Shown here: piece after piece, positions 21,573 through 60,015 of the stretch
Layout: each line of letters starts with the position of its first letter
How positions within the stretch are numbered: the stretch's first letter is position 1
NCBI RefSeq assembly: GCF_002234675.1
Contig: NC_019878.2
Coordinates: 4,218,688 to 4,282,687, forward strand
Direction of reading: 5' to 3'
Source of the DNA: Oryzias latipes
Taxonomy: Eukaryota > Chordata > Actinopteri > Beloniformes > Adrianichthyidae
Length of the DNA stretch: 64,000 nt
The notes under the pieces: model-generated
Database searches by the model: none
What the model was told of the DNA's origin: nothing
What the model saw: the letters and a program-made list of their open reading frames with translations, nothing else
Made by a program: the position numbers and the translations under genes

Positions 21573-29073
<7,501 letters not shown>

Positions 29074-32584: not shown

Positions 32585-32616
32585 GAGGAATTAGCTCAAA
32601 TGGTAGAGCGCTCGCT
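32585..32616 (+). pseudogene. tRNA-Ala 5' half, split by Dada copy 1
   Basis: Covers acceptor strand, D arm and the 5' side of the anticodon stem (GAGGAATTAGCTC...GCTCGCT). It breaks off in the anticodon loop, where the GCGCAA repeat and Dada sequence begin. One change (GGGG to GAGG) affects acceptor position 2. Confidence 0.9.
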
Positions 32617-32622
32617 GCGCAA

Positions 32623-33383
32623 AGGCGGGGGGCTGATCTTCCCACTCGCGCACGAGGCAAAAGCACGCGCAAACCGGAAATCTGCGGCGCGGTTTTCACG
32701 CTGAAAGACTCTGGATATACGTCTACATATTGTGGATTGTTTTCAGTAATATGTGAAACGAGACTCTCTCCCAAAGCTGGACTCGAACCGAAGGTCTGTC
32801 CGTCCGCTCAGGTATCCAAGGACGCTGTTCGTCGCCGTCTTTCGGATGACGTATTTGAAACGTAAAACGCGAATGGTCAGACGCTCAGTCACGTTATCAT
32901 GAATCTTTCTTCATTGATAAATATGCAAGCTCATGTCTTCTGCAGTTTTCACAAGTTATTTATCGATAATAACTATCATGCCATGGATATTAATGCAAAA
33001 AAGCATGTTAACTTGCTTATTTTGACAATAAATGAATGTTTCTTTGTGTTGACACTTGTGTGCAGGACCTTTTTGCGGCTGTATAATTATCTATAACTGT
33101 ATAATACATATGATAGTTACATATTATTTATGTATTTTATTACTTTGTTTTTACAAGTTGTCTGTGACGTGTCACAAAACCTATTTACAGCTTTCGAATT
33201 GTATTATTTTCCCAAAAAAAGAAGCCTTTGACATGTTTACATTATTAAACATAACAGATTTAAAAAAAAATATTTTCTTCTTTTTTTTCTTGAGTGGGGT
33301 GTGGAGGGGACAAATTCTGGGAAACTGAAAGCTTATTTGTAGCTTTAATTGACCAGACAAATGATACTTCAAATGTAAAATGT
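32623..33383 (-). other. Dada copy 1 non-coding 3' terminal region
   Basis: Sequence between the transposon edge and the end of its gene. Near 32786-32796 the minus strand carries GGTTCGAGTCC, an exact Pol III B-box motif. Two AT-rich open frames here are almost unchanged in copy 2 (59256-60015), but the two copies are near-identical throughout, so this is no evidence of coding. Confidence 0.5.
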
Positions 33384-33389
33384 TTTATT
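33384..33389 (-). terminator. Polyadenylation signal of Dada gene, copy 1
   Basis: AATAAA on the minus strand, about 150 nt after the original stop codon region. The matching signal in copy 2 is at 60016-60021. Confidence 0.5.
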
Positions 33390-33709
33390 AAAATGAAGAC
33401 ACAGAAAACTAACATGAATCACATTGACAAAAAGTAAATATTAGAAAATAACAAAAAAAATTTTTTTAAATAACTAAAGAATGTACTTACAACAATAATT
33501 TACTATCTACATTACGATGATATTACCGAAGAGTACCTATGAAAGAGGAGGAGGAGGAGGTGATCTGCCTTTGTGCTGTTGGCGCTGTTCTGCCAACACG
33601 TCATCCAATGATCGTCCATTTGAAGCCCGCGAGCAAAATGTGGCATTTTTGTAGCGACTATGACCGTATTCTTTTGTTTTGGGCTGTCCACATTTGCTGC
33701 ACGTATTAT

Positions 33710-35457
33710 ATCAAATCAAATCAAATCAACCTTTATTTATATAGCACTTTTTCAACAACATATGTCACTCAAAGTGCTGTGCATAAAATACAATAAAACT
33801 TAAAAACAAGATGACAAGACAAACCGTGCGACAACCCCCCCCCCCCCCCCCCCCCCGCAAAAACACACACACCCACAGAAACACACACATCAATAAATAA
33901 ATAAATAAATGAATAAATAAATTAAAAAAGTGCTAAAATGATAGAATGTAGAGACCAGGCTTTGTCCTGAAGTGGGGAAACGATAGTTTGGGGACATGTC
34001 CACACCAGCGACCCCCCAACCCAAGTTCATGGAGAACACTACCACAGAACCCCGCAGATCCGATCAAAAGAGTCAGACCCAGGAGATCCCACTGCAGCGT
34101 CCCCGCTCACTGAGAAGGGTCAGTCACTGATGTGCAGGATCCCTCAGAGGAAAACACTGGAGTGTAATTAAATGTAAAAGGAATAAAATTAAAATATATA
34201 TAAAACATGGACAAAAAACAAATAATTACATGAACCTTAATAGGCATATGAAATAGTAAGAGCGACCAAAAAATTAATAGGATAAATAAATAAATAAATT
34301 TATTTACATACACATATAAAACTAGTTAAAAGAAAAATAAATAAATAATTAAAATATTTAAAAAATAAATAAATAAATAAAAATAAAATAAAAATTTAAA
34401 ATCCTAAAATTCAACTAAAAGCTAAATTAAAAAGGTAGGTCTTAAGCCTTCCTTTAAAAACATGAACAGTCTCTGCGGCCCTGAGGCTCTCTGGGAGGCT
34501 GTTCCACAGGCGAGGTCCGTAAAAACTGAATGAGGCCTCGCCGTATGTTTTTGTTCTTACTTTTGGAATAACCAAAAGGCCTGTATCAGAGGACCTCAGG
34601 GTCCGCGAGGGCTCATACTTTAAAATCATGTCAGATAAATATGAAGGCCCGAGACCATAAAAACATTTGTAAACCAATAAAAGAACTTTAAAATCAATTC
34701 TGAATTACACAGGGAGCCAATGCAACGATCTTAAAACTGGTGTAATGTGTTCCCGCCCCCTGGTCCTCGTCAACACGCGTGCTGCTGAATTTTGCAGCAG
34801 TTGAAGATTTGATATTCTTGTTCTGGGAACACCAGAGAGCAGGGCATTACAATAATCTAGTCTGCTGGTAATAAAAGCATGCATTAGCACCTCTGTACTG
34901 GCAAGAGAGAGAAACGGGCGGACTCTGGCTATATTTTTTAGATGATAAAATCCTGTTTTTGTGATATTTTTAATTTGTGGGATAAAATTCATCTCAGAGT
35001 CAAAAATGACACCCAGGTTTCTCACACACTGAGAAGTTTTGTAATTCTTTAGTTTAGATAAAACTATCTCTCTCTTGTCTTCAGAACCAATCACTAAAAC
35101 CTCTGTTTTGTCCTGGTTTAGCTGTAGGAAGTTCTCTGCCATCCATGACTCAATGTCTAAAATGCATTTTAAGAGTGTGTTGACCGACTCTTCATCATCA
35201 GGAGACACAGCGATGTAGAGTTGAGTGTCATCAGCATAGCTGTGGAAACAAACGCCATGCCTCCTGATGACGTCCCCCACTGGCAACATATATAGATTAA
35301 AAAGTAGTGGGCCTAAAATTGAACCTTGGGGGACCCCACAGTTGATGTCGAAGACCCTTGAGGAGCAAGTATCCATACTTACGTAAAAACTTCGATCTGT
35401 GAGATAGGAATAAAACCACTTTAGTACGGTACCAGAGATGCCCAAACCTCTCAGTCT
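33710..35457 (-). mobile_element. L2-type LINE, 5'-truncated, inside Dada copy 1
   Basis: Comparison with the uninterrupted copy 2 (around 60360) shows extra DNA between 'cgtattat' and 'ttcactcctcg'. It encodes an L2 reverse transcriptase on the minus strand: GVPQGSILGPLLF, YADDTQLYIA (catalytic YADD), QDKTEVLVIG, FITSRLDYCNALL and SLHWLPV. It then has an in-frame TAA near 34705 and continues to FKGRLKTYLFNLAFS (ending at 34411). The 3' UTR contains a C-homopolymer (about 33836-33856), A/T-rich simple repeats and an ATTTG-type tail. It is a different subfamily from the L2 at 3883. No clear target duplication is seen. Confidence 0.85.
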
Positions 35458-36007
35458 GTTCACTCCTCGTATGTATTTTCTTTTGTGGATGCCGCTTTCT
35501 TCCTCCAAGGCCCGTCTTTGCCTGTTCTTCTGTGTGGAGCGTGACACAGGGACAGTAGGGACAGCTGGGGCAGTCGCAGGTGGAACGAAGCCTGCACTGC
35601 TTGTTGTTGCTCCAGGAAATGGATAAGCGGTGGGCACAGCCATAACTGGGAAAGGAATTATGGTCCCCAACAATAATCCAGGTGCTGACACAGGTGGAAT
35701 AAAAGCAGTTACACTGGTGGCAGGTGTGATGGGGCACATCATACTGTCAGTAGCAGCAGAGGAAGAGGAAGAAGCAGTAGCAGTAGCAGTAGCAGCAGCA
35801 GGCCTGCGACCTGGTCTCAGAATAGGAGCCTGTCCTGCTCTATTTAGAGGAAGAATGAATTTGAATTTGGGCCCAGATGTGGATGGTGCCTCATCCATTT
35901 TTTGCCTTGGAGCAGGAAGGTCGCTTGCAGCTACAGCAACTGGCTCGGGTGGTGTCAATCCCTGGGCGAGGACACTCCTTTCTTGGTTTTTCTCCCGCCG
36001 CTGAAAC
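34705..36007 (-). pseudogene. Chimeric open frame: Dada last exon fused to L2 reverse transcriptase
   Basis: The Dada last exon reads through the insertion junction (…KYIRGVN | RLRGLGISG…) without a stop into the L2 RT domain and on to SLHWLPV at 34705. The joined frame is open from the splice acceptor at 36007, about 434 codons. It is an accident of insertion, yet a spliced transcript would encode a transposase with a C-terminal RT piece in place of its zinc knuckle. Confidence 0.7.
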
Positions 36008-39000
36008 CTGAAATGAATCAACGGTATTATGATAATGTTTAGAAAAAGTCATTGAAATAGAAGAAAATAAGGCGCTGTGCTCACCACTGAATGAGTGTCC
36101 TCTGATTGAGCTCAAACAGCTGGATCATTGTTTCCTCCATCAGCCTGCGACTGCTCAGCACTAAATCCCGGATATGGTGGTAATCCGTGAGGATTTTGGA
36201 CCACCTTGGGGTGCTAACTCCAGCCTTCTTGGTGGGCGTCTTGTGCAAACGGCTAAGCTTAATGCAAATAGCCTCAACCAATCGGCTGGTGCTTGGCCAC
36301 TGAGCTGGACCCCCAGGATGTCCAATGAGACACCTTTTCACGCTTTCCACTCCTGGTGTCACCCCGGAGCGTTTAGGTGCCTTAAAGCGGCCGTGTGAAA
36401 GCTGAGGCTGGTGCCGAGGCTGGTAGTTGACCCGCTTTTTGTCCACATCCAGGAGAGCTGTCCATAGTCGAATGGCCTCTGTAACTTGTGGGTCAGTGAG
36501 GTAAGGAGCCTCACGGAGTCCCACTAAGTAAGAGGCCAGATCCTGGACTTTGTCCCACCCAGCTATGCCGTCGGGTCCTACAACAGCAGACTAATAAATG
36601 CAAATGAATGTTAGAAATGCTGAACCAGATGAGACTAAAATGAAAGGATGGTCCTTTAAAACGTCTCACCTCTGCCTCGTCTGAAGGGCTGCTTTCACTC
36701 TCAGTTGGCTGTGACACCACCACAGAGGAAAGACGATGAGCAGAAGATTCAGGTCCACCTGGTGATACTGAGAGTTGAGGCTGAGGTGAAGATAAGAGGC
36801 TGGCAACAACATCAAGAGGGGGGTCATCCAACACTGGAACAGTGATGTCCTCCATGTTGTCTTCCCCAAACCCCTCGTCTTGGAAGTCCTGGTCATCGAT
36901 TCCCTCCAGCAGCCTGTCCTCCTCTTCAGGGGTCTGAAGCATGGCAGTAAATGTTTTGCCAGTCTGGCTGTACAGGTATTCTATTCCAAGCAATTCCCCT
37001 ACACAAATTAAAAGAAAAAGAGAGCTGTAAACACAGACATTACGAGCTAAATAGATCAATCTCAAAATAACAAATATATTTCTTACCCGTATATGCTCCA
37101 GGAGGGCGATAACGCTCATCCCAGGGCTTCCCTAGCACTGCTTGGCTGAGTTGGTCCACAGCCTCTCTCATTGAAGTTTCGAATAACCGGAAGGAGGAAT
37201 TTCCTTTGACAGCATCCTCCATCCGGTCATCATTCCAGCGCATCAAGCCCTCAAGGAGATATGCCTGGAAATGCGCGTCACTGGCACTGGTTCCTGAGTG
37301 AAACAAACAGGGTTTGATAAGTCTCTGTTTACAAGATGTGAACCACATGAAAGCAAATGTTAGAAATGTTTACAGAAAGGTTAGGAACCCAGATGTTCAG
37401 TGCACATTACCTGGTATAAAACGGTTCAGGTGGAGGTGGAAGGACTCCAAGGAGGTCGACCCACGGGCACACCTGTAGCAAGACAGCTCCACGCCGCCTT
37501 TCTTTAGTGTGCCCGTCTTCATGTAGAGTGGGAAGTTCTCGGGGTCTTGGATGCACAGCAGGTGGTTTTGCTGTTCCTTCCAAATCTGTTGGATGCGTTC
37601 GTGGTCCAACAGTGGAACTCCAAGGGTGTCCTTCCCATCTGCACTGTCGAACTGATGGATTAGTGCTCTTAATAATGCTGCAGTCTCCTCCACTCCCCTG
37701 GTCCTCCTCCGACAGTGGAGTGCCAACTCCCTGCGACTAATCTGAGCACTGACCGTCCTTCTGGAAACATGGCCACTTTTCTTTGCTGCCAGCTCAGCCT
37801 CCTTAGCGCAGCGAAGAGCAGCCACATCCTCTGGATCCCACTCAAAAATGCACGCAGACAGACGTGCCATGAAGATCCCGTAGAGCGGATGAGCCTCTGT
37901 CGTGACACCTGCAGCGAATCGCCGCATGAAATGCCAGATGTCCAGGCGCACCTCAAGCTTATCCCACTCTGAAAACAGGGTCTTCACCAGAGACCGGCCG
38001 TGTCTGCTGCAGCAGTCTCTGTCCACGTACATCACTTTTGGGGGTGCCTCTCCTGCCTCCCTGTAGCGCCTCATCAGGCCAGCCGCCATGGCGTCCAGTC
38101 CATGTCCTTCAGCGGCTGTCAGAACAGAGACCAGAACCTGGCCATGTTCATTGCCGACATTTGTGCACCAGGCAGCTGTTCCTGAAGCAGCCCCCGCAAG
38201 CTTCTTTGTGACCTATTGACAAAAAAGTAAAAACTGTTTATTATTTATGTAAGCATATTAATATCTGTTTAAAAAAGTTTTGAAAAAGTACCTTTTTTGT
38301 GGAGTCCATCTTCAAAACACATCCAAACACAGATGTGATTTTGGCCTTCACTTCGTTGATCCGCCCCAGAACATCCCTTGCATAAACAGCTAACAGCCAC
38401 TTAGGCTTAGGCAAGGCCGGCATGGGGGGGGGCTCAGCAAACACTGGTCGCTGAAGAGAGGCCCTTGTGAACGGTTCACACACTGTGAGGTACTGTAGGA
38501 CGCGCTGTGTCCATGCCTCACTGTGCTGTTCCAGTAACTTTTTATAAAGTTGTGTCACGCTGTTGCCCAGTGTCCTCTCCCTCATCATTCTCAGCACCCG
38601 CTTGTCACATGAGTACCTAAGGAAACAACAGCATAGGATAGGCATGCAAACCTTAGGTTAGGCAAAAATGAAAACACAAAGTCAGCTCATTATGAACATG
38701 CGTCAATATGTCCCACCTGTATGTCAGCAGAGCTGGGAAATGGCTGCGATGACCCATGTCCATCTGCCCCAAAATGTCCTCTGACCAGGATGGGTATTTT
38801 CTCTTGCAGCGTTTACATTCCAGATACTCCGTGGCGAGGTCATACCACCCATCAATGTCCAGGACTTTACGAACAGTCCTGTAAATTCCAGCCGCCGTAA
38901 GTCTGTGCTGACCACATTGTGGACGACCGCAGACAAAAAGAAATGACCACATTTTTTGTGGCATCCACAGGAACAGGGGCCGGCAGAAGAAGATGTCTGG

Positions 39001-40712
39001 TGAGGCGGGAGGCTGAGTATGAACCAGAGCGGGCTGAGGAGGATGCCACCAAAGCTTTAGCTGAGACACAAGTTCTGCCTTGCCGGTTCGTGGGTTGGCT
39101 TTGAAAAGCGTCTTTGCAATCCACTCGTGCTGGAAGCGTGGCAGTTGTTCTTTCCAGTGGACTGGAAGCTCCAGCGCTGACTTTGCTGCTGCCACAGATG
39201 GAGAGGGACCAGGACAGGCCTCTGAGGGAACAGGAACAAACAGAAGAATGACTCTTCCAGCTGCTATAGCATAAATGACACAAATGACAGTGGAGAACAG
39301 AAAGAGGATCAAATGGTAAAGATTAAAGAAATGAGGCTCAAAATTAGGCTTTTTTGCAAGCAAAAAAATGCTTTTTTATAATGCTTCTAAAAGTGTCTTT
39401 GATTAAAAAAAACAGTCTCCTAAGGTTACTGTCTGGTTAATATAACACACCTGCATTTAGCTGTGCTTCACATTGTGCTGCAGCAAGAAGCAGCTCCTCG
39501 TCATCAGCCTCCTTAGCAGGAGGAATGGAAGTGTCTAGAAGAAAGTATAAACATATTACTCTAAGAAACACATAAAGACAAACTTATGTAAAATAGAGCT
39601 TAATTACCAGCAGTAAAAAGCTGCCTTCGGCCCAAATTTTTGGCTGGAGGTTCTCCTCCTCCTCTTGGAGGAGGCAGTACAGGATCTTAAAAAAGAGCAA
39701 TTGGACACTTTTACCATATTGCTAAATGCATGTGGAATTGCTCTGAGAACAAATAAATATGCATGTATACTCACGGTGCTTAGCTGGTGATGTGAGTTTT
39801 TTGACGAGCTGGGAAGTAGGGATATTTTTGCCAAGTCCTAAGAGTGCCTTCACAGCAGCAGTCTGCTGGATGCCGGTTCGGATCTGGGTGGCAGAAGGGG
39901 TAGTGGCACGGGTGGGTGTAGTTGCACTGAAGGATGGAGTTGCAGTGGCAAGCGAAGGTGCAGCAGGAGGGGCAGTAGCACGAGATGATGCCCGTCTTTT
40001 TATGACGTATGCCTTGAAAATTGCCATGTTGGTGTTGGGCCTGGCATGTGCTGTCACCAGATACTTGATAAGGGCTTGGGCCTCCTTGCTCCCGTCCTCA
40101 TAAACCTCCTTCATGGACCGGCCCTGGAAGTCGCCAAACTCAACCATCAAGTAGCCCTGGTCTCCAGTTGCTCGGGCTTCTGCTTGCATTTCCTGCTTTC
40201 TCTTGTACTTTTCACCTTCTTCTCCCATCTCTCTAATTTGAGAAGTGTACTGAAGGAAGAGTTGCTTGTTTTCTGACAACGGTGATGTATGTGCTGCCTC
40301 GTCAGAGATGCTAAGCATTAAATACACAGCATAGCCCAGAGAGTTTTCCAGGAGCCATCTAAATCGTTGGCCTTGGTATTTACCAAACTGTAGTCTGCAG
40401 TGAGCCAATACCAAAAACTGGTCACTGGGGTCACCTCCGTTTGTGCTGACAAACGTCCGGGCCTCTTTAAGCACCTCCGCCTTTGGTTTCGCACGTCCAG
40501 TCTCCACATTTTCAAGGCGCTTTGCCTCGGCTGAAGGTGCCAGAAGGAGACGGGTTGATGTTGCAGATTGGCGACGGAAAACAGGATAAGCATACATTTT
40601 CTGCAATGAAAATATAGCCATTAACAATTTGCATTTTAAGGGTGTGACAATAATTTAACAAGCTATATGTAAACAATAATCATGGGGTAATAAACACTGC
40701 CATAACCCATGG

Positions 40713-40824
40713 CAGACAGACAGACAGACAGACAGTGAGTGAGTGAGTGAGTGAGTGAGTGAGTGAGTGAGTGAGTGAGTGAGTGAGTGAGTGAGTGAGT
40801 GAGTGAGTGAGTGAGTGAGTGAGT
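40713..40824 (+). repeat. (GTGA)n microsatellite
   Basis: A run of CAGA units followed by about 24 GTGA units, ending in GTGTGTGT. It lies in Dada intron 1, about 110 bp upstream of the first coding exon. Confidence 0.97.
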
Positions 40825-40924
40825 GTGTGTGGGGGACCCCCTTCCCCAGGAGAAACCTCGACCCCACCCTCAATAGAAAACCAACCAAACAACGTCAATA
40901 CAGTCCCCATTTTCTGGGTGAGAT

Positions 40925-41150
40925 GAACGCCGCTATGTTGGAGAGAAAGAGCCAGACACTGTCAGTCCATAAAAAACATGAACAAATTAGAATAATAAGG
41001 AGATGCCAATAAAGAGGTATCAGAGACAGAATTGTTATCTGACCAATAGAATGACTGAGTAACAGGTTTTTTCTCCATATGGTATTTTGGCTTCTTGGAG
41101 CCAGCGAGGGGGGGGGGGGGGTCCTTCAGTCCAGTTCTCCTACAGTAAGG
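40925..41150. repeat. MITE fragment within Dada copy 1 intron 1
   Basis: Shares 'tatggtattttggcttctt' and the end 'CAGTCCAGTTCTC' with the MITE at 14363-14859. A run of G's interrupts it near 41110. Limits are approximate. Confidence 0.5.
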
Positions 41151-41496
41151 GCTAAAACTCTTGATGGCTGCTCACTGTACTTTTGAAACTACAGTTTCAC
41201 CGAATATTTACAACTCATTCATCCAGAGTTAACTGACATCTCCACACATTTTATTACTTTATTATGAGCGTTGTTATAACTGTTGTTGTTAGAAAAACAT
41301 CCCCCTTAAACCATATTGGAGGATTTACACTTTCAAAGCAATATAAATGATTATGGCGATGTTTAACGTATCTGATCAGATCTGTAGCATCATTGGATTT
41401 GTTTGTGCAGCATCGATCACAATTAAAAGTTTAACGTAATGGGGGGGAAAAGGGACTGCCGACTATCGATATTTCCCCTTTTCTAACAAATACGTA

Positions 41497-41843
41497 TCGA
41501 AGGTGAACAATCAATGTCTGATCGCTAGCAAACCACTTTACCTGTTATTACGAAGACGTGAAAAGATGGCGGCCGCTGGCCGATCAAACGTAAACACAAG
41601 CACAGAAACGGGATGGAACAAAAGGTCGCGGATTAAATAAAAAAACTACAGACTATCATAATCATACCGAAGGTGGACAATCAATAAATAAATAAAGAAT
41701 GAAACCAGTTTACCTGTGTTGTTACGAACTCGAAGACGTGAAAATGGCGGTTGATCTGAGCGGTCGATGAGCGATCAAGCATGAACAAGAGCACAAAAAC
41801 GTGGTCGAACAAAAGGTCGCAGATTAAATCCAAGAAAAATGCC
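41497..41843 (-). promoter_or_regulatory. Duplicated first exon/promoter of the Dada gene
   Basis: Two tandem, diverged copies of about 170 bp (roughly 41497-41650 and 41668-41843) each contain 'cgaagacgtgaaaa', an (A)AGATGGCGG-type YY1-like motif (41563-41573 in the first) and a perfect splice donor on the minus strand: CAG|GTAAAG, exon ending at 41542, and CAG|GTAAAC, exon ending at 41714. These look like alternative noncoding first exons spliced to the acceptor at 40600. Confidence 0.5.
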
Positions 41844-41908
41844 AGCTATAAACGAACAACCCACAGGAGGGAACAGTAAAAGTGACGAATCACTACTTGG
41901 AGCACGGC

Positions 41909-41916
41909 TATTTAAA
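41909..41916 (-). promoter_or_regulatory. TATA-like box upstream of the Dada gene
   Basis: Minus-strand TTTAAATA lies about 70 bp upstream of the distal duplicated first-exon region, within 200 bp of the element's end. Weak evidence by motif alone. Confidence 0.3.
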
Positions 41917-42116
41917 CATCCGCTCACAGCCGCTCACAGCAAGCTAACGCGCACGGATGATTGGTCAAGTATGAGCTAGAGAGGAACGTCATTGGCTGTA
42001 GTGTGGACTTACTTTGGATTTACCTTACGTGATTGGCTGTAGAGAGGCAGGGATGTACTAACTTTGAACTAACTTAGATCAACTTTGGCTCAAAATCTGC
42101 GCTCCAGCAGGCGCAA

Positions 42117-42152
42117 TGTGAGAGGTAGGGGGATCGATGCCCTCATTCTCCA
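42117..42152 (+). pseudogene. tRNA-Ala 3' half, split by Dada copy 1
   Basis: The 36-nt 3' half (TGTGAG...ATTCTCCA) immediately after the right GCGCAA repeat. It is the partner of the 5' half at 32585-32616. Confidence 0.92.
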
Positions 42153-42184
42153 TTATCTTCAGTTGTTGACTAGTGTAACTAATG

Positions 42185-42189
42185 TACAC
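42185..42189 (+). repeat. Target duplication of the BEL/Pao element, left
   Basis: TACAC here and at 49568-49572. Removing the element and one copy restores the spacer sequence 'aatgtacaccttaaaatt' seen in the other array units. Confidence 0.9.
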
Positions 42190-42639
42190 TGTAGCTGCTC
42201 CTCAAGTTTTTCAATATGATCAGGAAAAAGCCACGCTCCGACTCCTGATCTTTTGGTTGTTTATTTTTCACGTAACCAAACGAATCACCGTGAAAAACTA
42301 AAGAAAAACAAATTACACTTTCAGATTACACTTATACATAAAGATATACAAAATTACAATAAAATGAAACAATATTACCGTGTGCCCTCTGATCAAATTT
42401 TAAGGAGTTGCTTTTCCATTTGAAAGTCTTTGCACCATGCTCTGTTCCGTCTTCTTCCAGCTTGTTCTCTGCTTCTTGCTTATAACGCTAATGCTGCCCA
42501 TCAGACTTTTTATGACCAAACGGATGGACAGCGCATGCACAATCAATTTTCAGTTCACCACAAGGGGTCAGCAATGAGTCACAAAAAATTGAACATAAAG
42601 AACATTTACAAAATGAAAACTTATTTTGTGACAGCTACA
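42190..42639 (-). repeat. BEL/Pao 3' LTR
   Basis: 450-bp direct repeat of 49118-49567, starting TG and ending CA (TGTAGCTGCTCC...GACAGCTACA). The two LTRs differ at about six positions, so the insertion is fairly recent. Confidence 0.93.
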
Positions 42640-42746
42640 CTGCCACCAAAATTACATAAGATTTGTATGTACACATGTAAAATCTTGTAATTTTCAAAAA
42701 TAACAATATGAAGAACCTTAAACTGTCAACCTTCATTTTTAACATC

Positions 42747-43889
42747 TTACTCATGTTGAACTAAAACTACAAGTTTTTGAACTGGGCGTTCAAGAAAAGA
42801 CACTTGCTTCAAGCGTTCACCCTTTTCTCCCAAATCTCTCTGACCCATTTTAATCTTAACCTTTCGCACTAAACCATCATCGTCTTTGTTTGCTTCAGTT
42901 ACCCTCCCCAGTTTCCACTCATTTCTAGGCATGTTGTCTTCTTTGAGTAGCACAACATCTCCAACCTTCACATTTCTTTTAGGCATGTGCCACTGCTGTC
43001 TTAAGCTTATGGTGGTTAGATACTCTTTGCGCCACCTGTGCCAGAAATGCTCTGTCAGATACTGAACTCTGCGCCATCTTTTTCTAGCATACAAATCTTC
43101 TCTGACAAATCTACCTGGAGGTGGGAGTGGAACTGCTGTTTTCATCGTGAGTAAATGGTTAGGCGTTAAAGGCTCAACACTCATTGGATCGTTGATTGTC
43201 TCAATAGTGAGTGGACGGTTATTTACGATTGACATAGCCTCGTAAAACATGGTTCTTAAAGACGCGTCATCTAATCGTCCGGCGACTTGTGCAAGAACAG
43301 AACTCATCACGCTCTTTACCGTTCTGATCTGTCGCTCCCAAACTCCCCCTCTATGACTAGCGTTGGGAATGTTCATTTGGAAGTCACACTGGGTTTTGGC
43401 TAAATACCTAGCAATCCTGTCCTTGTCAAGTTCTGAAAGACACTTTTGAAACTCGTTTTTAGCTCCGACAAAATTTGTACCTTGATCTGATCTGATCTGA
43501 CGTACTGCTCCTCTGATGGCAATAAAACATCTCAACCCATTTATGAATGAGTCTGTAGAAAGATCTTCCAACATCTCAATGTGAATGGCCCTTGAACTCA
43601 AACAGGTAAACAAAAGACCATAACGCTTATTTTCCTTTCTTCCTTGTCTGGTAACAAAGGGACCAAAACAGTCTAGCCCAGTGTATGTGAAAGGGGGTGA
43701 GGGCTCCACTCGATCTACTGGCAAGTCAGCCATACGTTGCTCTGCTGTTGACCCTCTTAGCTTCCTACATGTCACACACCCTTTAATGAACTTTGCCACA
43801 ACCTTGCTGGCACTCACAATCCAATAGCCATTGGCTCTTAGTGCATTAAGTGTCTGGCCTCTGCCCTGATGTTGAGTTTTCTTGTGACA
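42747..43889 (-). pseudogene. BEL/Pao pol, integrase part downstream of a stop
   Basis: Continues in the same frame as the gag-pol frame above it, separated only by the TGA at 43890-43892. It begins CHKKTQHQGRGQTLNALRA, part of the HHCC zinc domain, then CVTCRKLRG, the catalytic core (YTGLDCFGPF, RSDQGTNFVGA, and the downstream acidic residue in HRGGVWERQIR) and a C-terminal DUF5641-like domain (VGDVVLLKEDNMPRNEWKLG). An internal ATG at 43815-43817 gives a 356-codon frame but is not a natural start. Confidence 0.88.
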
Positions 43890-48773: not shown

Positions 48774-49117
48774 TATCAGAACAGGATTAACAAATCACTA
48801 TCTTTAAATGTTCAACAATAACAAAATTCAAAAGGCATCAAGTAACACACTAATAACAAGTAACTTAGAACATCAGTAACATTAGTCTTTTTTTTTTTCC
48901 TTTTTTTTTTTGTCTTCTTCTTTTTCTAACCGACTCTAATGATACAGTCTGACCTGTTAGGCATAAAATGCACTGTGCTGAGAAGTTCAGTCCATTTTCG
49001 ACTCCATTGATGTGGCTGTGCTCTTCTTCAGCTCTAGCTGCTGCAGGCCTTTTCCAATGGCACCAAGGACGACTCCCGCTAGCTTCTCTCGTGGCACCGA
49101 CAGGTCACGTTTTTCAC

Positions 49118-49567
49118 TGTAGCTGCTCCTCAAGTTTTTCAATATGATCAGGAAAAAGCCACGCTCCGACTGCTGATCTTTTGGTTGTTTATTTTTCACG
49201 TAACCAAACGAATCACCGTGAAAAACTAAAGAAAAACAAATTACACTTTCAGATTACACTTATACATAAAGATATACAAAATTACAATAAAATGAAACAA
49301 TATTACCGTGTGCCCTCTGATCAAATTTTAAGGAGTTGCTTTTCCATTTGAAAGTCTTTGCACCATGCTCTGTTCCGTCTTCTTCCAGCTTGTTCTCTGC
49401 TTCTTTCTTATAACGCTAATGCTGCCCATCAGACTTTTTATGACCAAACGCATGGACAGCGCATGCACAATCAATTTTCAGTTCACCACAAGGGGTCAGC
49501 AATGAGTCACAAAAAATTAAACATAAAAGACATTTACAAAATGAAAACTTATTTTGTGACAGCTACA
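49118..49567 (-). repeat. BEL/Pao 5' LTR
   Basis: Twin of the LTR at 42190-42639. It is upstream of gag on the minus strand, so it would carry the promoter. I could not identify a convincing TGG-starting primer binding site directly next to it. Confidence 0.93.
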
Positions 49568-50213
49568 TACACCTTAAAATTAAACCATTCATCAAACACA
49601 TTACGTGGTTTTTAAACAATCACCATTGCTAAGTGCTTACTAAGCACTATTCAGCTGCAAGAAATCTGCAGTCTTTCAGTTGTTAATCACTAAGATCTTC
49701 TTGAGGTATCCCATTTTTTAGTGGCTTTCAGATGTTGATGTCCAAAAATAGTATTCAGTGGGTTCCGCAACAACACAATGGCAACTCGTTGATCCCTCTT
49801 GATGGGTCTAAGTTTTTGCTCATAAGGAGTGTATAACCTCATGTAAAAAGATGCATGCAAAATTACCATCAGGGAAAATGGACATCAGAAAGATTTGCTG
49901 GTCAGTCTCTTTTTACTCAGCACAACTACGGACATAGGTAATGAGTCACCTTTTAGATTTTTTGATTCATGTAGAAGCCCCAGGTTTTTATTTTACCTTT
50001 GTAAATAGGGCCTTGCCAACCATTCTAGCATTAGCGTGTCAACTGTGGAAACCAAAATAGTATCTTATAGTTGTCCACCATTGGAACATGTTGAGATTTT
50101 GCAGAGAAAAACTATAAAGACAGTGTTTGGATATGCAACCATGTTAGGAAGATTTGTCAATTCATTACACAAAGTGAAATTAAAGCTTGGCACAGTAAAA
50201 ACATCTAACGGAA

Positions 50214-50286
50214 GGGGAATTAGCTCAAATGGTAGAGCGCTTGCTTAGCATGTGAGAGGTAGGGGGATCGACGCCCTCATTCTCCA
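50214..50286 (+). tRNA. tRNA-Ala (AGC), copy 1
   Basis: 73 nt, GGGGAATTAGCTC...CATTCTCCA. The acceptor stem pairs with the G3·U70 wobble that specifies alanine charging. Anticodon AGC is at 50247-50249. A box TAGCTCAAATGG and B box GGATCGACGCC are present. The anticodon stem has CTTGC/GTGAG with a G·U pair. Confidence 0.93.
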
Positions 50287-50966
50287 TTATCTTCAGTTGT
50301 TGACTAGTGTAACTAATGCACACCTTCAAAATTAAACCATTCATCAAACACATTACATGGTTTTTAAACAATCACCATTGCTATCTGCTTAATAAGGACT
50401 ATCCATCTGCAAGAAATCTGCAGTCTTTCAGTTGTTAATTACTAAAAATCTTCTTGAGGTATCCCATTTTTTAGTGGCTTTCAGATGTTGATGTCCAAGA
50501 ATAGTATTCAGTGGGTTCCGCAAAAACACAATGGCAACTCGTTGATCCCTCTTGATGGGTCTAAGTTTTTGCTCACAAGGAGTGTATAACCTCAGGTAAA
50601 AAGATGCATGCAAAATTACCATCAGGGAAAATGGACATCAGAAAGATTTGCTGGTCAGTCTCTTTTCATTCAGCACAACTACGTACATAGGTAATGAGTC
50701 ACTTTTTAAATTTTTTGATTCATGTAGAAGCCCCAGGTTTTTATTTTACCTTTGTAAATAGGGCCTTGCCAACCATTCTAGCATTAGCTTGTAAACTGTG
50801 GAAACCAAAATAGTATCTTATGGTTGTCCACCATTGGAACATGTTGAGATTTTGCAGAGAAAAACTATAAAGACAGTGTTTGGATATGCAACCACGTTAG
50901 GAAGATTTGTCAATTCATTTCACAAAGTGAAATTAAAGCTTGGCACAGTAAAAACATCTAACAGAA

Positions 50967-51039
50967 GGGGAATTAGCTCAAATGGTAGAGCGCTCGCTTA
51001 GCATGTGAGAGGTAGGGGGATCGATGCTCTCATTCTCCA
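50967..51039 (+). tRNA. tRNA-Ala (AGC), copy 2
   Basis: Anticodon at 51000-51002. T stem has CTCTC in place of CCCTC, still pairing by G·U. G3·U70 is kept. The flanking bases read 'aacagaagggg' where other units have 'aacggaagggg'. Confidence 0.92.
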
Positions 51040-51717
51040 TTATCTTCAGTTGTTGACTAGTGTAACTAATGTACACCTTAAAATTAAACCATTCATCAAA
51101 CACATTATGTGGTTTTTAAACAATCACCATTGCTAAGTGCTTACTAAGCACTATTCAGCTGCAAGAAATCTGCAGTCTTTCAGTTGTTAATCACTAAGAT
51201 CTTCTTGAGGTATCCCATTTTTTAGTGGCTTTCAGATGTTGATGTCCAAAAATAGTATTCAGTGGGTTCCGCAACAACACAATGGCAACTCGTTGATCCC
51301 TCTTGATGGGTCTAAGTTTGTGCTCACGAGGAGTGTATAACCTCAGGTAAAAAGATGCATGCAAAATTACCATCAGGGAAAATGGACATCAGAAAGATTT
51401 GCTGGTCAGTCTCTTTTTACTCAGCACAACTACGGACATAGGTAATGAGTCACCTTTTAGATTTTTTGATTCATGTAGAAGCCCCAGGTTTTAATTTTAC
51501 CTTTGTATATAGGGCCTTGCCAACCATTCTAGCATTAGCGTGTCAACTGTGGAAACCAAAATAGTATCTTATGGTTGTCCACCATTGGAACATGTTGAGA
51601 TTCTGCAGAGAAAAACTATAAAGACAGTGTTTGGATATGCAACCACGTTAGGAAGATTTGTCAATTCATTACACAAAGTGAAATTAAAGCTTGGCACAGT
51701 AAAAACATCTAACGGAA

Positions 51718-51790
51718 GGGGAATAAGCTCAAATGGTAGAGCGCTCGCTTCGCATGTGAGAGGTAGGGGGATCGACACCCTCATTCTCCA
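51718..51790 (+). tRNA. tRNA-Ala (CGC), copy 3, with U8A change
   Basis: Anticodon CGC at 51751-51753. The near-invariant U8 is A (GGGGAATAAGCTC), and the T loop reads ATCGACA. The U8 change removes the U8-A14 tertiary pair and also alters the A box, so function is doubtful. Its 3' flank (AAATAACTTC) also differs. Confidence 0.85.
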
Positions 51791-52469
51791 AATAACTTCA
51801 GTTGTTGACTAGTGTTGCTAATGTACACCTTAAAATTAAACCTTTCACCAAACACATTACTTCGTTTTTAAACAATCACCATTGCTAAGTGCTTACTAAG
51901 GACTATACAGCTGCAAGTGCTCTGCAGTCTTTCATTTGTTAATCAGTAAGATCTTCTTGAGGTATCCCATTTTTTAGTGGCTTTCAGATGTTGATGTCCA
52001 AGAATAGTATTCAGTGGGTTCCGCAAAAACACAATGGCAACTCGTTGATCCCTCTTGATGAGTCTAAGTTTTTGCTCACAAAGGAGTATATAACCTCAGG
52101 TAAAAAGATGCATGCAAAATTACCATCAGGGAAAATGGACATCAGAAAGATTTGCTGGTCAGTCTCTTTTCATTCAGCACAACTACGTACATAGGTAATG
52201 AGTCACCTTTTAAATTTTTGATTCATGTAGAAGCCCCAGGTTTTTATTTTACCTTTGTAAATAGGGCCTTGCCAACCATTCTAGCATTAGCGTGTCAACT
52301 GTGGAAACCAAAATAGTATCTTATGGTTGTCCACCATTGGAACATGTTGAGATTTTGCAGAGAAAAACTATAAAGACAGTGTTTGGATATGCAACCATGT
52401 TAGGAAGATTTGTCAATTCATTACACAAAGTGAAATTAAAGCTTGGCACAGTAAAAACATCTAATGGAA

Positions 52470-52542
52470 GGGGAATTAGCTCAACTGGTAGAGCGCTCGC
52501 TTAGCATGTGAGAGGTAGGGGGATCGACGCCCTCATTCTCCA
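52470..52542 (+). tRNA. tRNA-Ala (AGC), copy 4
   Basis: Anticodon at 52503-52505. The D loop reads CAACTGGTA where other copies have CAAATGGTA. Stems are intact, G3·U70 present. Confidence 0.92.
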
Positions 52543-53218
52543 TTATCTTCAGTTGTTGACTAGTGTAACTAATGCACACCTTAAAATTAAACCATTCATC
52601 AAGCACATCACGTGGTTTTTAAACAATCACCATTGCTATCTGCTTACTAAGGACTATACAGCTGCAAGAAATCTGCAGTCTTTTACTTGTTTATCACTAA
52701 AATCTTCTTGACGTATCCCATTTTTTAGTGGCTTTCAGATGTTGATGTCCAAGAATAGTATTCAGTGGGTTCCACAAAAACACAATGGCAACTCGTTGAT
52801 CCCTCTTGATGAGTGTAAGTTTTTGCTCACAAGGAGTGTATAACCTCAGGTAAAAAGATGCATGCAAAATTACCATCAGGGAAAATGGACATCAGAAAGA
52901 TTTGCTGGTCAGTCTCTTTTTACTCAGCACAACTACGGACATAGGTAATGAGTCACCTTTTAGATTTTTTGATTCATGTAGAAGCCCCAGGTTTTTATTT
53001 TACCTTTGTAAATAGGGCCTTGCCAACCATTCTAGCATTAGCTTGTAAACTGTGGAAACCAAAATAGTATCCTATGATTGTCCACCATTGGAACATGTTG
53101 AGATTTCAGAGAAAAACTATAAAGACAGTGTTTGGATATGCAACCACGTTAGGAAGATTTGTCAATTCATTTCACAAAGTGAAATTAAAGCTTGGCACAG
53201 TAAAAACATCTAACGGAA

Positions 53219-53291
53219 GGGGAATTAGCTCAAATGGTAGAGCGCTTGCTTAGCATGTGAGAGGTAGGGGGATCGATGCCCTCATTCTCCA
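53219..53291 (+). tRNA. tRNA-Ala (AGC), copy 5
   Basis: Anticodon at 53252-53254. Anticodon stem variant CTTGC, as in copy 1. G3·U70 present. Confidence 0.92.
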
Positions 53292-53965
53292 TTATCTTCA
53301 GTTGTTGACTAGTGTAACTAATGTACACCTTAAAATTAAACCATTCATAAAACACATTACATGGTTTTTAATCACCATTGCTAAGTGCTTACTAAGCACT
53401 ATTCAGCTGCAAGAAATCTGCAGTCTTTCAGTTGTTAATCACTAAGATCTTCTTGAGGTATCCCATTTTTTAGTGGCTTTCAGATGTTGATGTCCAAAAA
53501 TAGTATTCAGTGGGTTCCGCAACAACACAATGGCAACTCGTTGATCCCTCTTGATGGGTCTAAGTTTTTGCTCATAAGGAGTGTATAACCTCATGTAAAA
53601 AGATGCATGCAAAATTACCATCAGGGAAAATGGACATCAGAAAGATTTGCTGGTCAGTCTCTTTTTACTCAGCACAACTACGGACATAGGTAATGAGTCA
53701 CCTTTTAGATTTTTTGATTCATGTAGAAGCCCCAGGTTTTTATTTTACCTTTGTATATAGGGCCTTGCCAACCATTCTAGCATTAGCGTGTCAACTGTGG
53801 AAACCAAAATAGTATCTTATGGTTGTCCACCATTGGAACATGTTGAGATTTTGCAGAGAAAAACTATAAAGACAGTGTTTGGATATGCAACCACGTTAGG
53901 AAGATTTGTCAATTCATTACACAAAGTGAAATTAAAGCTTGGCACAGTAAAAACATCTAACGGAA

Positions 53966-54038
53966 GGGGAATTAGCTCAAATGGTAGAGCGCTCGCTTCG
54001 CATGTGAGAGGTAGGGGGATCGATGCCCTCATTCTCCA
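53966..54038 (+). tRNA. tRNA-Ala (CGC), copy 6
   Basis: Anticodon CGC at 53999-54001, with all other positions as in the AGC copies, including U8 and G3·U70. A plausible functional tRNA-Ala reading GCG. Confidence 0.92.
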
Positions 54039-54716
54039 TTATCTTCAGTTGTTGACTAGTGTAACTAATGCACACCTTAAAATTAAACCATTCATCAAAC
54101 ACATCACGTGGTTTTTAAACAATCACCATTGCTATCTGCTTACTAAGGACTATACGGCTGCAAGAAATCTGCAATCTTTTACTTGTTTATCACTAAAATC
54201 TTCTTGACGTATCCCATTTTTTAGTGGCTTTCAGATGTTGATGTCCAAGAATAGTATTCAGTGGGTTCCGCAAAAACACAATGGCAACTCGTTGATCCCT
54301 CTTGATGAGTGTAAGTTTTTGCTCACAAGGAGTGTATAGCCTCAGGTAAAAAGATGCATGCAAAATTACCATCAGGGAAAATGGACATCAGAAAGATTTG
54401 CTGGTCAGTCTCTTTTTACTCAGCACAACTACGGACATAGGTAATGAGTCACCTTTTAGATTTTTTGATTCATGTAGAAGCCCCAGGTTTTTATTTTACC
54501 TTTGTATATAGGGCCTTGCCAACCATTCTAGCATTAGCGTGTCAACTGTGGAAACCAAAATAGTATCTTATGGTTGTCCACCATTGGAACATGTTGAGAT
54601 TTTGCAGAGAAAAACTATAAAGACAGTGTTTGGATATGCAACCACGTTAGGAAGATTTGTCAATTCATTACACAAAGTGAAATTAAAGCTTGGCACAGTA
54701 AAAACATCTAACGGAA

Positions 54717-54789
54717 GGGGAATTAGCTCAAATGGTAGAGCGCTCGCTTCGCATGTGAGAGGTAGGGGGATCGATGCCCTCATTCTCCA
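54717..54789 (+). tRNA. tRNA-Ala (CGC), copy 7
   Basis: Anticodon CGC at 54750-54752. The unit is almost identical to copy 6, indicating a very recent single-unit duplication. Confidence 0.92.
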
Positions 54790-55466
54790 TTATCTTCAGT
54801 TGTTGACTAGTGTAACTAATGCACACCTTAAAATTAAACCATTCATCAAGCACATCACGTGGTTTTTAAACAATCACCATTGCTATCTGCTTACTAAGGA
54901 CTATACGGCTGCAAGAAATCTGCAATCTTTTACTTGTTTATCACTAAAATCTTCTTGACGTATCCCATTTTTTAGTGGCTTTCAGATGTTGATGTCCAAG
55001 AATAGTATTCAGTGGGTTCCGCAAAAACACAATGGCAACTCGTTGATCCCTCTTGATGAGTGTAAGTTTTTGCTCACAAGGAGTGTATAGCCTCAGGTAA
55101 AAAGATGCATGCAAAATTACCATCAGGGAAAATGGACATCAGAAAGATTTGCTGGTCAGTCTCTTTTCATTCAGCACAACTACGTACATAGGTAATGAGT
55201 CACCTTTTAAATTTTTGATTCATGTAGAAGCCCCAGGTTTTTATTTTACCTTTGTAAATAGGGCCTTGCCAACCATTCTAGCATTAGCGTGTCAACTGTG
55301 GAAACCAAAATAGTATCTTATGGTTGTCCACCATTGGAACATGTTGAGATTTTGCAGAGAAAAACTATAAAGACAGTGTTTGGATATGCAACCACGTTAG
55401 GAAGATTTGTCAATTCATTTCACAAAGTGAAATTAAAGCTTGGCACAGTAAAAACATCTAACGGAA

Positions 55467-55539
55467 GGGGAATTAGCTCAAATGGTAGAGCGCTCGCTTA
55501 GCATGTGAGAGGTAGGGGGATCGATGCCCTCATTCTCCA
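55467..55539 (+). tRNA. tRNA-Ala (AGC), copy 8
   Basis: Anticodon at 55500-55502. Stems are canonical for this array. Sits 4500 bp from copy 2 and shares its spacer variants. Confidence 0.93.
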
Positions 55540-56217
55540 TTATCTTCAGTTGTTGACTAGTGTAACTAATGTACACCTTAAAATTAAACCATTCATCAAA
55601 CACATTACGTGGTTTTTAAACAATCACCATTGCTAAGTGCTTACTAAGCACTATTCAGCTGCAAGAAATCTGCAGTCTTTCAGTTGTTAATCACTAAGAT
55701 CTTCTTGAGGTATCCCATTTTTTAGTGGCTTTCAGATGTTGATGTCCAAAAATAGTATTCAGTGGGTTCCGCAACAACACAATGGCAACTCGTTGATCCC
55801 TCTTGATGGGTCTAAGTTTTTGCTCACAAGGAGTGTATAACCTCAGGTAAAAAGATGCATGCAAAATTACCATCAGGGAAAATGGACATCAGAAAGATTT
55901 GCTGGTCAGTCTCTTTTTACTCAGCACAACTACGGACATAGGTAATGAGTCACCTTTTAGATTTTTTGATTCATGTAGAAGCCCCAGGTTTTAATTTTAC
56001 CTTTGTATATAGGGCCTTGCCAACCATTCTAGCATTAGCGTGTCAACTGTGGAAACCAAAATAGTATCTTATGGTTGTCCACCATTGGAACATGTTGAGA
56101 TTCTGCAGAGAAAAACTATAAAGACAGTGTTTGGATATGCAACCACGTTAGGAAGATTTGTCAATTCATTACACAAAGTGAAATTAAAGCTTGGCACAGT
56201 AAAAACATCTAACGGAA

Positions 56218-56289
56218 GGGGAATAAGCTCAAATGGTAGAGCGCTCGCTTCGCATGTGAGAGGTAGGGGGATCGACCCCTCATTCTCCA
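56218..56289 (+). tRNA. tRNA-Ala (CGC), copy 9, degenerate
   Basis: Sister of copy 3 with the same U8A change and CGC anticodon (56251-56253). It has also lost one nucleotide in the T loop (72 nt in total), which breaks the B box spacing. Probably a pseudogene. Confidence 0.8.
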
Positions 56290-56964
56290 ATAACTTCAGT
56301 TGTTGACTAGTGTCTAATGTACACCTTAAAATTAAACCTTCACAAACACATTACTTCGGTTTTTAAACAATCACCATTGCTAAGTGCTTACTAAGGACTA
56401 TACAGCTGCAAGTGCTCTGCAGTCTTTCATTTGTTAATCAGTAAGATCTTCTTGAGGTATCCCATTTTTTAGTGGCTTTCAGATGTTGATGTCCAAGAAT
56501 AGTATTCAGTGGGTTCCGCAAAAACACAATGGCAACTCGTTGATCCCTCTTGATGAGTCTAAGTTTTTGCTCACAAGGAGTATATAACCTCAGGTAAAAA
56601 GATGCATGCAAAATTACCATCAGGGAAAATGGACATCAGAAAGATTTGCTGGTCAGTCTCTTTTCATTCAGCACAACTACGTACATAGGTAATGAGTCAC
56701 CTTTTAAATTCTTTGATTCATGTAGAAGCCCCAGGTTTTTATTTTACCTTTGTAAATAGGGCCTTGCCAACCATTCTAGCATTAGCGTGTCAACTGTGGA
56801 AACCAAAATAGTATCTTATGGTTGTCCACCATTGGAACATGTTGAGATTTTGCAGAGAAAAACTATAAAGACAGTGTTTGGATATGCAACCATGTTAGGA
56901 AGATTTGTCAATTCATTACACAAAGTGAAATTAAAGCTTGGCACAGTAAAAACATCTAATGGAA

Positions 56965-57037
56965 GGGGAATTAGCTCAAATGGTAGAGCGCTCGCTTAGC
57001 ATGTGAGAGGTAGGGGGATCGACGCCCTCATTCTCCA
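56965..57037 (+). tRNA. tRNA-Ala (AGC), copy 10
   Basis: Anticodon at 56998-57000. Shares the 'catctaatgg' 5' flank with copy 4. Stems intact. Confidence 0.93.
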
Positions 57038-57715
57038 TTATCTTCAGTTGTTGACTAGTGTAACTAATGCACACCTTAAAATTAAACCATTCATCAAACA
57101 CATTACGTGGTTTTTAAACAATCACCATTGCTATCTGCTTACTAAGGACTATACAGCTGCAAGAAATCTGCAGTCTTTTACTTGTTTATCACTAAAATCT
57201 TCTTGAGGTATCCCATTTTTTAGTGGCTTTCAGATGTTGATGTCCAAGAATAGTATTCAGTGGGTTCCGCAAAAACACAATGGCAACTCGTTGATCCCTC
57301 TTGATGAGTGTAAGTTTTTGCTCACAAGGAGTGTATAACCTCAGGTAAAAAGATGCATGCAAAATTACCATCAGGGAAAATGGACATCAGAAAGATTTGC
57401 TGGTCAGTCTCTTTTTACTCAGCACAACTACGTACATAGGTAATGAGTCACCTTTTAGATTTTTTGATTCATGTAGAAGCCCCAGGTTTTTATTTTACCT
57501 TTGTAAATAGGGCCTTGCCAACCATTCTAGCATTAGCTTGTAAACTGTGGAAACCAAAATAGTATCTTATGGTTGTCCACCATTGGAACATGTTGAGATT
57601 TTGCAGAGAAAAACTATAAAGACAGTGTTTGGATATGCAACCACGTTAGGAAGATTTGTCAATTCATTTCACAAAGTGAAATTAAAGCTTGGCACAGTAA
57701 AAACATCTAACGGAA

Positions 57716-57788
57716 GGGGAATTAGCTCAAATGGTAGAGCGCTCGCTTAGCATGTGAGAGGTAGGGGGATCGATGCCCTCATTCTCCA
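57716..57788 (+). tRNA. tRNA-Ala (AGC), copy 11
   Basis: Anticodon at 57749-57751. All stems and G3·U70 present. Counterpart of copy 5 in the six-unit repeat. Confidence 0.93.
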
Positions 57789-58466
57789 TTATCTTCAGTT
57801 GTTGACTAGTGTAACTAATGCACACCTTAAAATTAAACCATTCATGAAACACATTACATGGTTTTTAAACAATCACCATTGCTATCTGCTTACTAAGGAC
57901 TATCCAGCTGCAAGAAATCTGCAGTCTTTCAGTTGTTAATCACTAAAAATCTTCTTGAGGTATCCCATTTTTTAGTGGCTTTCAGATGTTGATGTCCAAG
58001 AATAGTATTCAGTGGGTTCCGCAAAAACACAATGGCAACTCGTTGATCCCTCTTGATGGGTCTAAGTTTTTGCTGACAAGGAGTGTATAACTCAGGTAAA
58101 AAGATGCATGCAAAATTACCATCAGGGAAAATGGACATCAGAAAGATTTGCTGGTCAGTCTCTTTTTACTCAGCACAACTACGGACATAGGTAATGAGTC
58201 ACCTTTTAGATTTTTTGATTCATGTAGAAGCCCCAGGTTTTTATTTTACCTTTGTATATAGGGCCTTGCCAACCATTCTAGCATTAGCGTGTCAACTGTG
58301 GAAACCAAAATAGTATCTTATGGTTGTCCACCATTGGAACATGTTGAGATTTTGCAGAGAAAAACTATAAAGACAGTGTTTGGATATGCAACCACGTTAG
58401 GAAGATTTGTCAATTCATTACACAAAGTGAAATTAAAGCTTGGCACAGTAAAAACATCTAACGGAA

Positions 58467-58539
58467 GGGGAATTAGCTCAAATGGTAGAGCGCTCGCTTA
58501 GCATGTGAGAGGTAGGGGGATCGATGCCCTCATTCTCCA
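58467..58539 (+). tRNA. tRNA-Ala (AGC), copy 12
   Basis: Anticodon at 58500-58502. Counterpart of copy 6 in the six-unit repeat, but with AGC where copy 6 has CGC. Confidence 0.93.
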
Positions 58540-59217
58540 TTATCTTCAGTTGTTGACTAGTGTAACTAATGCACACCTTAAAATTAAACCATTCATCAAA
58601 CACATTACGTGGTTTTTAAACAATCACCATTGCTATCTGCTTACTAAGGACTATACAGCTGCAAGAAATCTGCAGTCTTTTACTTGTTTATCACTAAAAT
58701 CTTCTTGACGTATCCCATTTTTTAGTGGCTTTCAGATGTTGATGTCCAAGAATAGTATTCAGTGGGTTCCGCAAAAACACAATGGCAACTCGTTGATCCC
58801 TCTTGATGAGTCTAAGTTTTTGCTCACAAGGAGTGTATAACCTCAGGTAAAAAGATGCATGCAAAATTACCATCAGGGAAAATGGACATCAGAAAGATTT
58901 GCTGGTCAGTCTCTTTTCATTCAGCACAACTACGTACATAGGTAATGAGTCACCTTTTAAATTTTTTGATTCATGTAGAAGCCCCAGGTTTTTATTTTAC
59001 CTTTGTAAATAGGGCCTTGCCAACCATTCTAGCATTAGCGTGTCAACTGTGGAAACCAAAATAGTATCTTATGGTTGTCCACCATTGGAACATGTTGAGA
59101 TTTTGCAGAGAAAAACTATAAAGACAGTGTTTGGATATGCAACCATGTTAGGAAGATTTGTCAATTCATTACACAAAGTGAAATTAAAGCTTGGCACAGT
59201 AAAAACATCTAACGGAA

Positions 59218-59249
59218 GGGGAATTAGCTCAAATGGTAGAGCGCTCGCT
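59218..59249 (+). pseudogene. tRNA-Ala 5' half, split by Dada copy 2
   Basis: GGGGAATTAGCTC...GCTCGCT, stopping in the anticodon loop at the same base as the 5' half at 32585-32616. It is followed by GCGCAA (59250-59255) and Dada sequence. The 3' half lies beyond the window. Confidence 0.92.
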
Positions 59250-60015
59250 GCGCAAAGGCGGGGGGCTGATCTTCCCGCTCGCGCACGAGGCAAAAGCACG
59301 CGCAAACCGGAAATCTGCGGCGCGGTTTTCACGCTGAAAGACTCTGGATATACGTCTACATATTGTGGATTGTTTTCAGTAATATGTGAAACGAGACTCT
59401 CTCCCAAAGCTGGACTCGAACCGAAGGTCTGTCCGTCCGCTCAGGTATCCAAGGACGCTGTTCGTCGCCGTCTTTCGGATGACGTATTTGAAACGTAAAA
59501 CGCGAATGGTCAGACGCTCAGTCACGTTATCATGAATCTTTCTTCATTGATAAATATGCAAGCTCATGTCTTGTGCAGTTTTCACAAGTTATTTATCGAT
59601 AATAACTATCATGCCATGGATATTAATGCAAAAAAGCATGTTAACTTGCTTATTTTGACAATAAATGAATGTTTCTTTGTGTTGACACTTGTGTGCAGGA
59701 CCTTTTTGCGGCTGTATAATTATCTATAACTGTATAATACATATGATAATTACATATTATTTATGTATTTTATTACTTTGTTTACACAAGTTGTCTGTGA
59801 CGTGTCACAAAACCTATTTACAGCTTTCGAATTGTATTATTTTCCAAAAAAAAAAAGACTTTGAGATGTTTACATTATTAAACATAACAGATTTAAAAAA
59901 AAATCTTTTCTTCTTTTTTTCTTGAGTGGGGTGTGGAGGGGACAAATTCTGGGAATGTGAAAGCTTATTTGTAGCTTTAATTGACCAGACAAATGATACT
60001 TCAAATGTAAAATGT

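Follow-up and report, generated by a model that had tools for sequence, protein, structure and literature searches.

A 64,000-base pair (bp) stretch of the medaka (Oryzias latipes) genome (contig NC_019878.2, here called C20, positions 4,218,688 to 4,282,687; hereafter the window) contains copies of a Dada-tA DNA transposon lodged in a tandem array of alanine transfer RNA (tRNA-Ala) genes, each at the same base of the anticodon loop. Our analysis favors, with a probability of about 0.87, separate insertions of this cut-and-paste element, which has a DDE transposase, into one tRNA-Ala array. We prefer separate insertions because one copy retains a native target junction, another is inverted and divergent, the ratio of nonsynonymous to synonymous substitution rates (dN/dS) between copies is about 0.2, and the flanks of the copies compared differ more than the elements themselves. 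The family, its occurrence in medaka and the replacement of a target hexamer by GCGCAA are already in print (PMC3706591, PMC8869645), and the core of the finding is thus already known; the association of the element with its native tRNA target, which an earlier note on this DNA had offered as possibly new, belongs to that published core. The case for Dada-tA, itself already described, is well supported; the detail added here concerns the individual junctions, the array context and a candidate recognition sequence.

Element copies and their junctions

The tRNA-Ala array has a unit of 751 bp, spans 31868-59249 in the window, where it is interrupted by other elements, and there contains 12 uninterrupted tRNA genes according to Rfam and 10 according to ARAGORN. 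It continues past the window along C20, and the chromosome sequence was therefore extended to C20:4320000; positions called extended below carry on the numbering of the window, and a run of 1000 Ns occupies extended 70590-71589. At least five insertions of one element are present in the array: a remnant, copies 2 and 3, and, beyond the window, copies 4 and 5. The earlier note, which described three copies at one tRNA-Ala base, had the coordinates and the base right and the number too low. At all seven junctions read in the array the tRNA is met at the same anticodon-loop base, allowing for a one-base difference at the right end of copy 2, and this recurrence excludes chance. The transposase is oriented opposite to the tRNAs. 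Every junction in the window (4/4) carries GCGCAA joined to half a tRNA-Ala gene, just as first noticed, and across the seven junctions the hexamer is GCGCAA in six and TTGCAT in one (copy 4). The relevant features of the window are as follows.

31736..31865, minus strand: remnant of the Dada-tA element consisting of its right end alone, with the transposase orientation of copy 2
31866..31871, plus strand: GCGCAA between the right end of the remnant and GTGAG of the tRNA
31872..32616, plus strand: tRNA-Ala unit between the remnant and copy 2 (3′ half of tRNA, spacer, 5′ half of tRNA)
32617..32622, plus strand: GCGCAA, left junction of copy 2
32623..42110, minus strand: copy 2 of the Dada-tA element, 9488 bp, with minus-strand transposase
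33711..35457, minus strand: retroelement fragment with an RVT_1 domain in the last coding exon of copy 2, not in copy 3
35458..40600, minus strand: copy 2 transposase gene, ten exons, GT-AG introns, 1403 residues up to the break
42085..42094, plus strand: TTGGCTCAAA in the right end of copy 2, matching tRNA TTAGCTCAAA in register relative to the junction
42111..42116, plus strand: GCGCAA, right junction of copy 2, followed by TGTGAG
42117..42189, plus strand: 3′ half of the tRNA interrupted by copy 2 and the beginning of its spacer
49568..59249, plus strand: remainder of the unit interrupted by copy 2, then twelve more tRNA-Ala units at steps of about 751 bp; the final 5′ half tRNA ends at 59249
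59250..59255, plus strand: GCGCAA, left junction of copy 3
59256..64000 in the window, minus strand: copy 3 of the Dada-tA element, ending at extended 66989 (7734 bp in total)

The right ends of the remnant, of copy 3 and of copy 5, the last read on the minus strand because this divergent copy is inverted, all continue as GCGCAA-GTGAG, and one extra T is present at the right junction of copy 2 (GCGCAA-TGTGAG). Copy 4 starts at extended 73871, and its left junction reads GCGCTCGCT-TTGCAT-AAGCAGGGGG, that is, with a native hexamer; its right end has been lost through rearrangement. Between the remnant and copy 2 there are 4 substitutions across 120 aligned bases and a 10-bp insertion or deletion (indel), and further to the left of the remnant no similarity to the element was found. 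Comparison of the element ends in register gave no match indicative of a terminal inverted repeat.

About 50 bp downstream of the tRNA that copy 2 interrupts, the tRNA spacer contains a BEL/Pao-type long terminal repeat (LTR) retrotransposon (42190-49567). Pfam Peptidase_A17, RVT_1 and rve matches extend across two minus-strand open frames, and its LTRs, about 450 bp long and 98.7% alike, are accompanied by a 5-bp repeat, TACAC.

The transposase and assignment to Dada-tA

The transposase gene models were built by hand with GT-AG introns and without transcripts. In copy 2 the gene is broken in its last coding exon by the retroelement fragment listed above, around which no obvious target duplication was seen, and the full 1478-residue model originally put forward for this copy must therefore pass over that fragment. 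Copy 3, which is free of the insert, has ten exons encoding 1464 residues with no internal stop. Residues 351-580 of the transposase match Pfam DUF6729 (PF20499; E 7.1e-93), a domain of unknown function that may correspond to a Dada zinc-finger region; no mention of DUF6729 by name was found in the literature searched. With residues assigned from printed Dada positions, the DDE residues are D601, D669 and E861, with DxxH after the second D (DIWH, 696-699). The N-terminal CCCC zinc finger is formed by C426, C431, C464 and C467 (spacing 5, 33, 3), and copy 3 contains a C-terminal CCHC zinc finger from residue 1407 (spacing 3, 10, 9).

Collectively, these data support assignment of the element to Dada-tA, as the earlier note had proposed, on every feature that the sequence allows to be compared: motifs, most spacings, both zinc fingers, introns, orientation, the anticodon-loop site and the GCGCAA replacement. 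Dada-U6_DR has the same D-to-D distance, 68, and the same CCHC spacing (PMC3706591). Set against the assignment are the distance from the second D to E, which is 192 here and 176 in Dada-U6_DR, the middle CCCC spacing, which is 33 here and 35 in Dada-U6_DR (5, 35, 3) (PMC3706591), and the basis of the assignment, namely printed layout and features.

Separate insertions and tandem amplification

A single insertion in one tRNA unit might instead have been followed by tandem amplification of the interrupted unit, with GCGCAA arising once and being copied along, an alternative raised in the earlier note. This scenario would account for the identical GCGCAA at six of seven junctions and for the direct orientation of three insertions with the array. 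In addition, tandem arrays change copy number, and near-identical units are present here; for example, those at 51003 and 55503 have only 4 differences. However, amplification does not predict the native TTGCAT at the left junction of copy 4, the inversion and divergence of copy 5, or the extra T at the right junction of copy 2. Silent differences between copies also outnumber protein-changing ones. Over 1403 codons, 14 silent and 9 protein-changing differences separate copies 2 and 3 (dN/dS 0.20, Fisher p 1.6e-4); the corresponding numbers are 43 and 30 between copies 4 and 2, and 36 and 25 between copies 4 and 3 (1357 codons, 46 gapped codons having been dropped), with dN/dS of 0.20-0.22 between copies. 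Such selection on the protein suggests that the copies descend from working elements and did not arise by passive duplication.

The spacers flanking copies 2 and 3 likewise favor separate insertions. The left flanks of these copies differ at 19 of about 745 sites, compared with 49 of 3500 in the non-coding part of the element (p 0.035), and each flank is nearer to another unit than to its counterpart. Taken together, these observations make amplification improbable, if not for every copy. Some weight must be set on the other side of the balance: the flank comparison is a weak test whose result gene conversion among units could disturb, and the remnant is too short for dating. The blastn identity of 91% between the remnant and copy 2 mostly reflects the 10-bp indel rather than substitutions, and the remnant alone says little about the independence of the insertions.

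The origin of GCGCAA

Uninterrupted target sites were sought genome-wide with a pattern in which bases 1, 2 and the last of the hexamer were open and one mismatch was allowed, the counts being lower bounds. At least 23 such sites were found, 20 in the C20 array and one each on C1, C13 and C14. The 20 array sites have the native hexamers TAGCAT (13), TCGCAT (6) and TTGCAT (1). GCGCAA was found at none of the 23 (0/23), and it is therefore foreign to the target. As regards the 6-7 bp duplications that the earlier note cited for Dada elements, copies 2 and 3 are each flanked by a six-base direct repeat, but GCGCAA is no copy of TAGCAT, TCGCAT or TTGCAT.

The 20 uninterrupted array genes (50202-59249 and on along C20) have the alanine anticodons AGC (13), CGC (6) and TGC (1), the wobble base, which lies inside the Dada-tA target hexamer, being the sole difference. 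The plain reading of these differences is tolerated isoacceptor variation; that they are excision scars would be a wild guess.

The replacement has been described before. Five of six full-length zebrafish Dada-tA copies have GCGCAA in place of TAGCAT, medaka copies likewise adjoin GCGCAA, and neither species was found to have an intact tRNA gene carrying this hexamer (PMC3706591). A 2022 survey repeats the observation, allows that replacement may be one-sided and speculates that the old flank travelled along with the element (PMC8869645). One way in which this might occur is that the transposase makes a 6-nucleotide staggered cut in the target while the element exits its old site carrying 6-nucleotide flaps of donor flank; the donor flaps would then fill the target gaps, replacing TAGCAT with GCGCAA, and where the target strand was kept the flank would remain native, as at copy 4 (TTGCAT). 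Flap transfer would explain the equal lengths, the replacement on two sides or one, and the native flank of copy 4. We advance this step tentatively, as the leading candidate among explanations none of which reaches even odds.

Somewhat less probable is that GCGCAA is part of the element at both ends and that insertion removes six target bases without duplication. The presence of the hexamer at six of seven junctions, including that of the divergent copy 5, and its absence from the 23 native sites are what such an element would produce, yet copy 4 combines a recognizable left end with a native hexamer, and one-sided replacement has been reported (PMC8869645). That GCGCAA is an ordinary target duplication derived from a since-lost tRNA-Ala variant seems very improbable: it would yield the direct repeats around copies 2 and 3, but neither the uninterrupted sites found here (0/23) nor the zebrafish and medaka genes surveyed (PMC3706591) include such a variant, and the same flank occurs on both sides of inserted copies amid otherwise ordinary units.

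A right-end match to the tRNA

The right end of the element contains TTGGCTCAAA and the tRNA contains TTAGCTCAAA, the two being exactly equidistant from the junction. These motifs are ten bases long and one transition apart. The tRNA stretch containing TTAGCTCAAA lies in the A-box region. Among six pairings of element ends and flanks this one alone stood out (shuffle p 0.001), and register zero was the best of 61 registers (shuffle p 0.0017 at zero). The motif is exact in the remnant, copy 2 and copy 3, and in copy 5 a single base is mismatched. These matches raise the possibility that the transposase reads the tRNA-Ala DNA upstream of the cut, where the right end of the element would repeat the A-box sequence in register. 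We put such a recognition step slightly below an even chance, given that the match is one of six pairings tried, that an equal score was reached at some register in 9.5% of shuffles (p 0.095), and that the left end of the element lacks the motif, all of which count against it. In the published accounts, the 2013 passages on likeness between end and target concern U6 and U1 (PMC3706591), and a word search of the 2022 main text gave no mention of subterminal or inverted repeats (PMC8869645).

Relatives elsewhere in the genome

Patterns for the right and left ends, with up to three mismatches, each gave three matches in the genome, all in the C20 array. A search with 161 bases of the right end gave 24 matches. 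Element sequence is present in four of these, all from the C20 array, namely the remnant, copy 2, copy 3 and copy 5; the remaining 20 consist of tRNA 3′ halves, of which 18 belong to the array, one lies on C9 and one on C1. All recognized ends thus lie in one array of about 25 tRNA genes, five of which have been hit, although old debris is not strictly confined. Transposase exon 6 gave 68 genome matches, of which four with at least 96% identity are copies 2, 3 and 4 and a relative on C14; the remainder are partial or, as in four cases at 58-60% across the whole exon, more distant. The best-preserved of the distant relatives have in common the motifs DSTKK, VDRDCC and DIWHF and the ending STSLESFHLHLNRFIPG.

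The C14 relative (C14:3337401-3347400) is decayed and mosaic, with a 2.5-kilobase (kb) core 95.7% like copy 3 and other pieces at 75-91%, a structure that seems likely to have arisen by gene conversion or recombination. It has no recognized ends and stops about 180 bases short of an intact tRNA-Ala gene; besides this gene, two decayed tRNA-Ala genes are neighbors of the locus. A second decayed relative, at C20:15.62 Mb, contains in-frame stop codons, and no tRNA is present in the 3.3 kb examined there. The earlier note had named copies at unrelated sites with no tRNA flank as evidence that would refute its reading. Both decayed relatives are outside the array, the C14 one beside a tRNA-Ala gene and the C20 one with no tRNA in the sequence examined, and they speak against strict confinement.

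Three Dada-like transposase matches at C6:10152096-10168464, in the same direction and about 7.7-7.9 kb apart, look like tandem copies from another Dada family. No interrupted U6 genes were found by a genome search with one form of pattern (0 found). Elsewhere in the window are a tubulin gene exon (21576-22430, minus strand; Pfam Tubulin_C and Tubulin) and two 20-bp tandem-repeat arrays (10839-11945 and 12670-13528) that lie in opposite orientation, are about 90% alike and form a large palindrome.

Implications and comparison with known systems

Combining these parts, Dada-tA might carry its own target-site repeat as flaps and aim by copying a promoter, with the working family living in a single array of about 25 genes and the transposase still under selection. 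This combined picture is unlikely to be correct. The choice of a single target base is unusual for a DNA transposon, and targeted gene delivery has been proposed as a use for one that selects its site in this way (PMC3706591). With several natural insertions side by side, including one whose flank was not swapped, the published puzzle of how the hexamer came to be replaced can be put to the test; the A-box match provides a candidate for the recognition sequence, and the array shows how small a niche may sustain a transposon family.

The closest known systems are Dada-tA_OL of medaka and Dada-tA_DR of zebrafish (PMC3706591, 2013), together with the further Dada-tA families (PMC8869645, 2022), all of which share with the present element the tRNA-Ala target, the anticodon-loop site and a transposase opposite to the tRNA. 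The replacement of TAGCAT by GCGCAA, a DDE transposase with DxxH, both finger types (CCCC and CCHC) and introns are shared with these families as well. In the portions of these accounts consulted, no mention was found of a TTGCAT junction like that of copy 4, of the A-box match or of a concentration in a single array (PMC3706591, PMC8869645). Dada-U6 and Dada-U1 have the same protein layout and are flanked by GCGCAA or by GCGAAA/GCGAAT, but they target small nuclear RNA genes, and their target-like motif is present at both element ends, in contrast to the right end only here. Site-specific non-LTR retrotransposons such as R2, which PMC3706591 also names, likewise occupy one site of a repeated gene; however, R2-type elements transpose by reverse transcription, whereas the element described here uses a DDE transposase.

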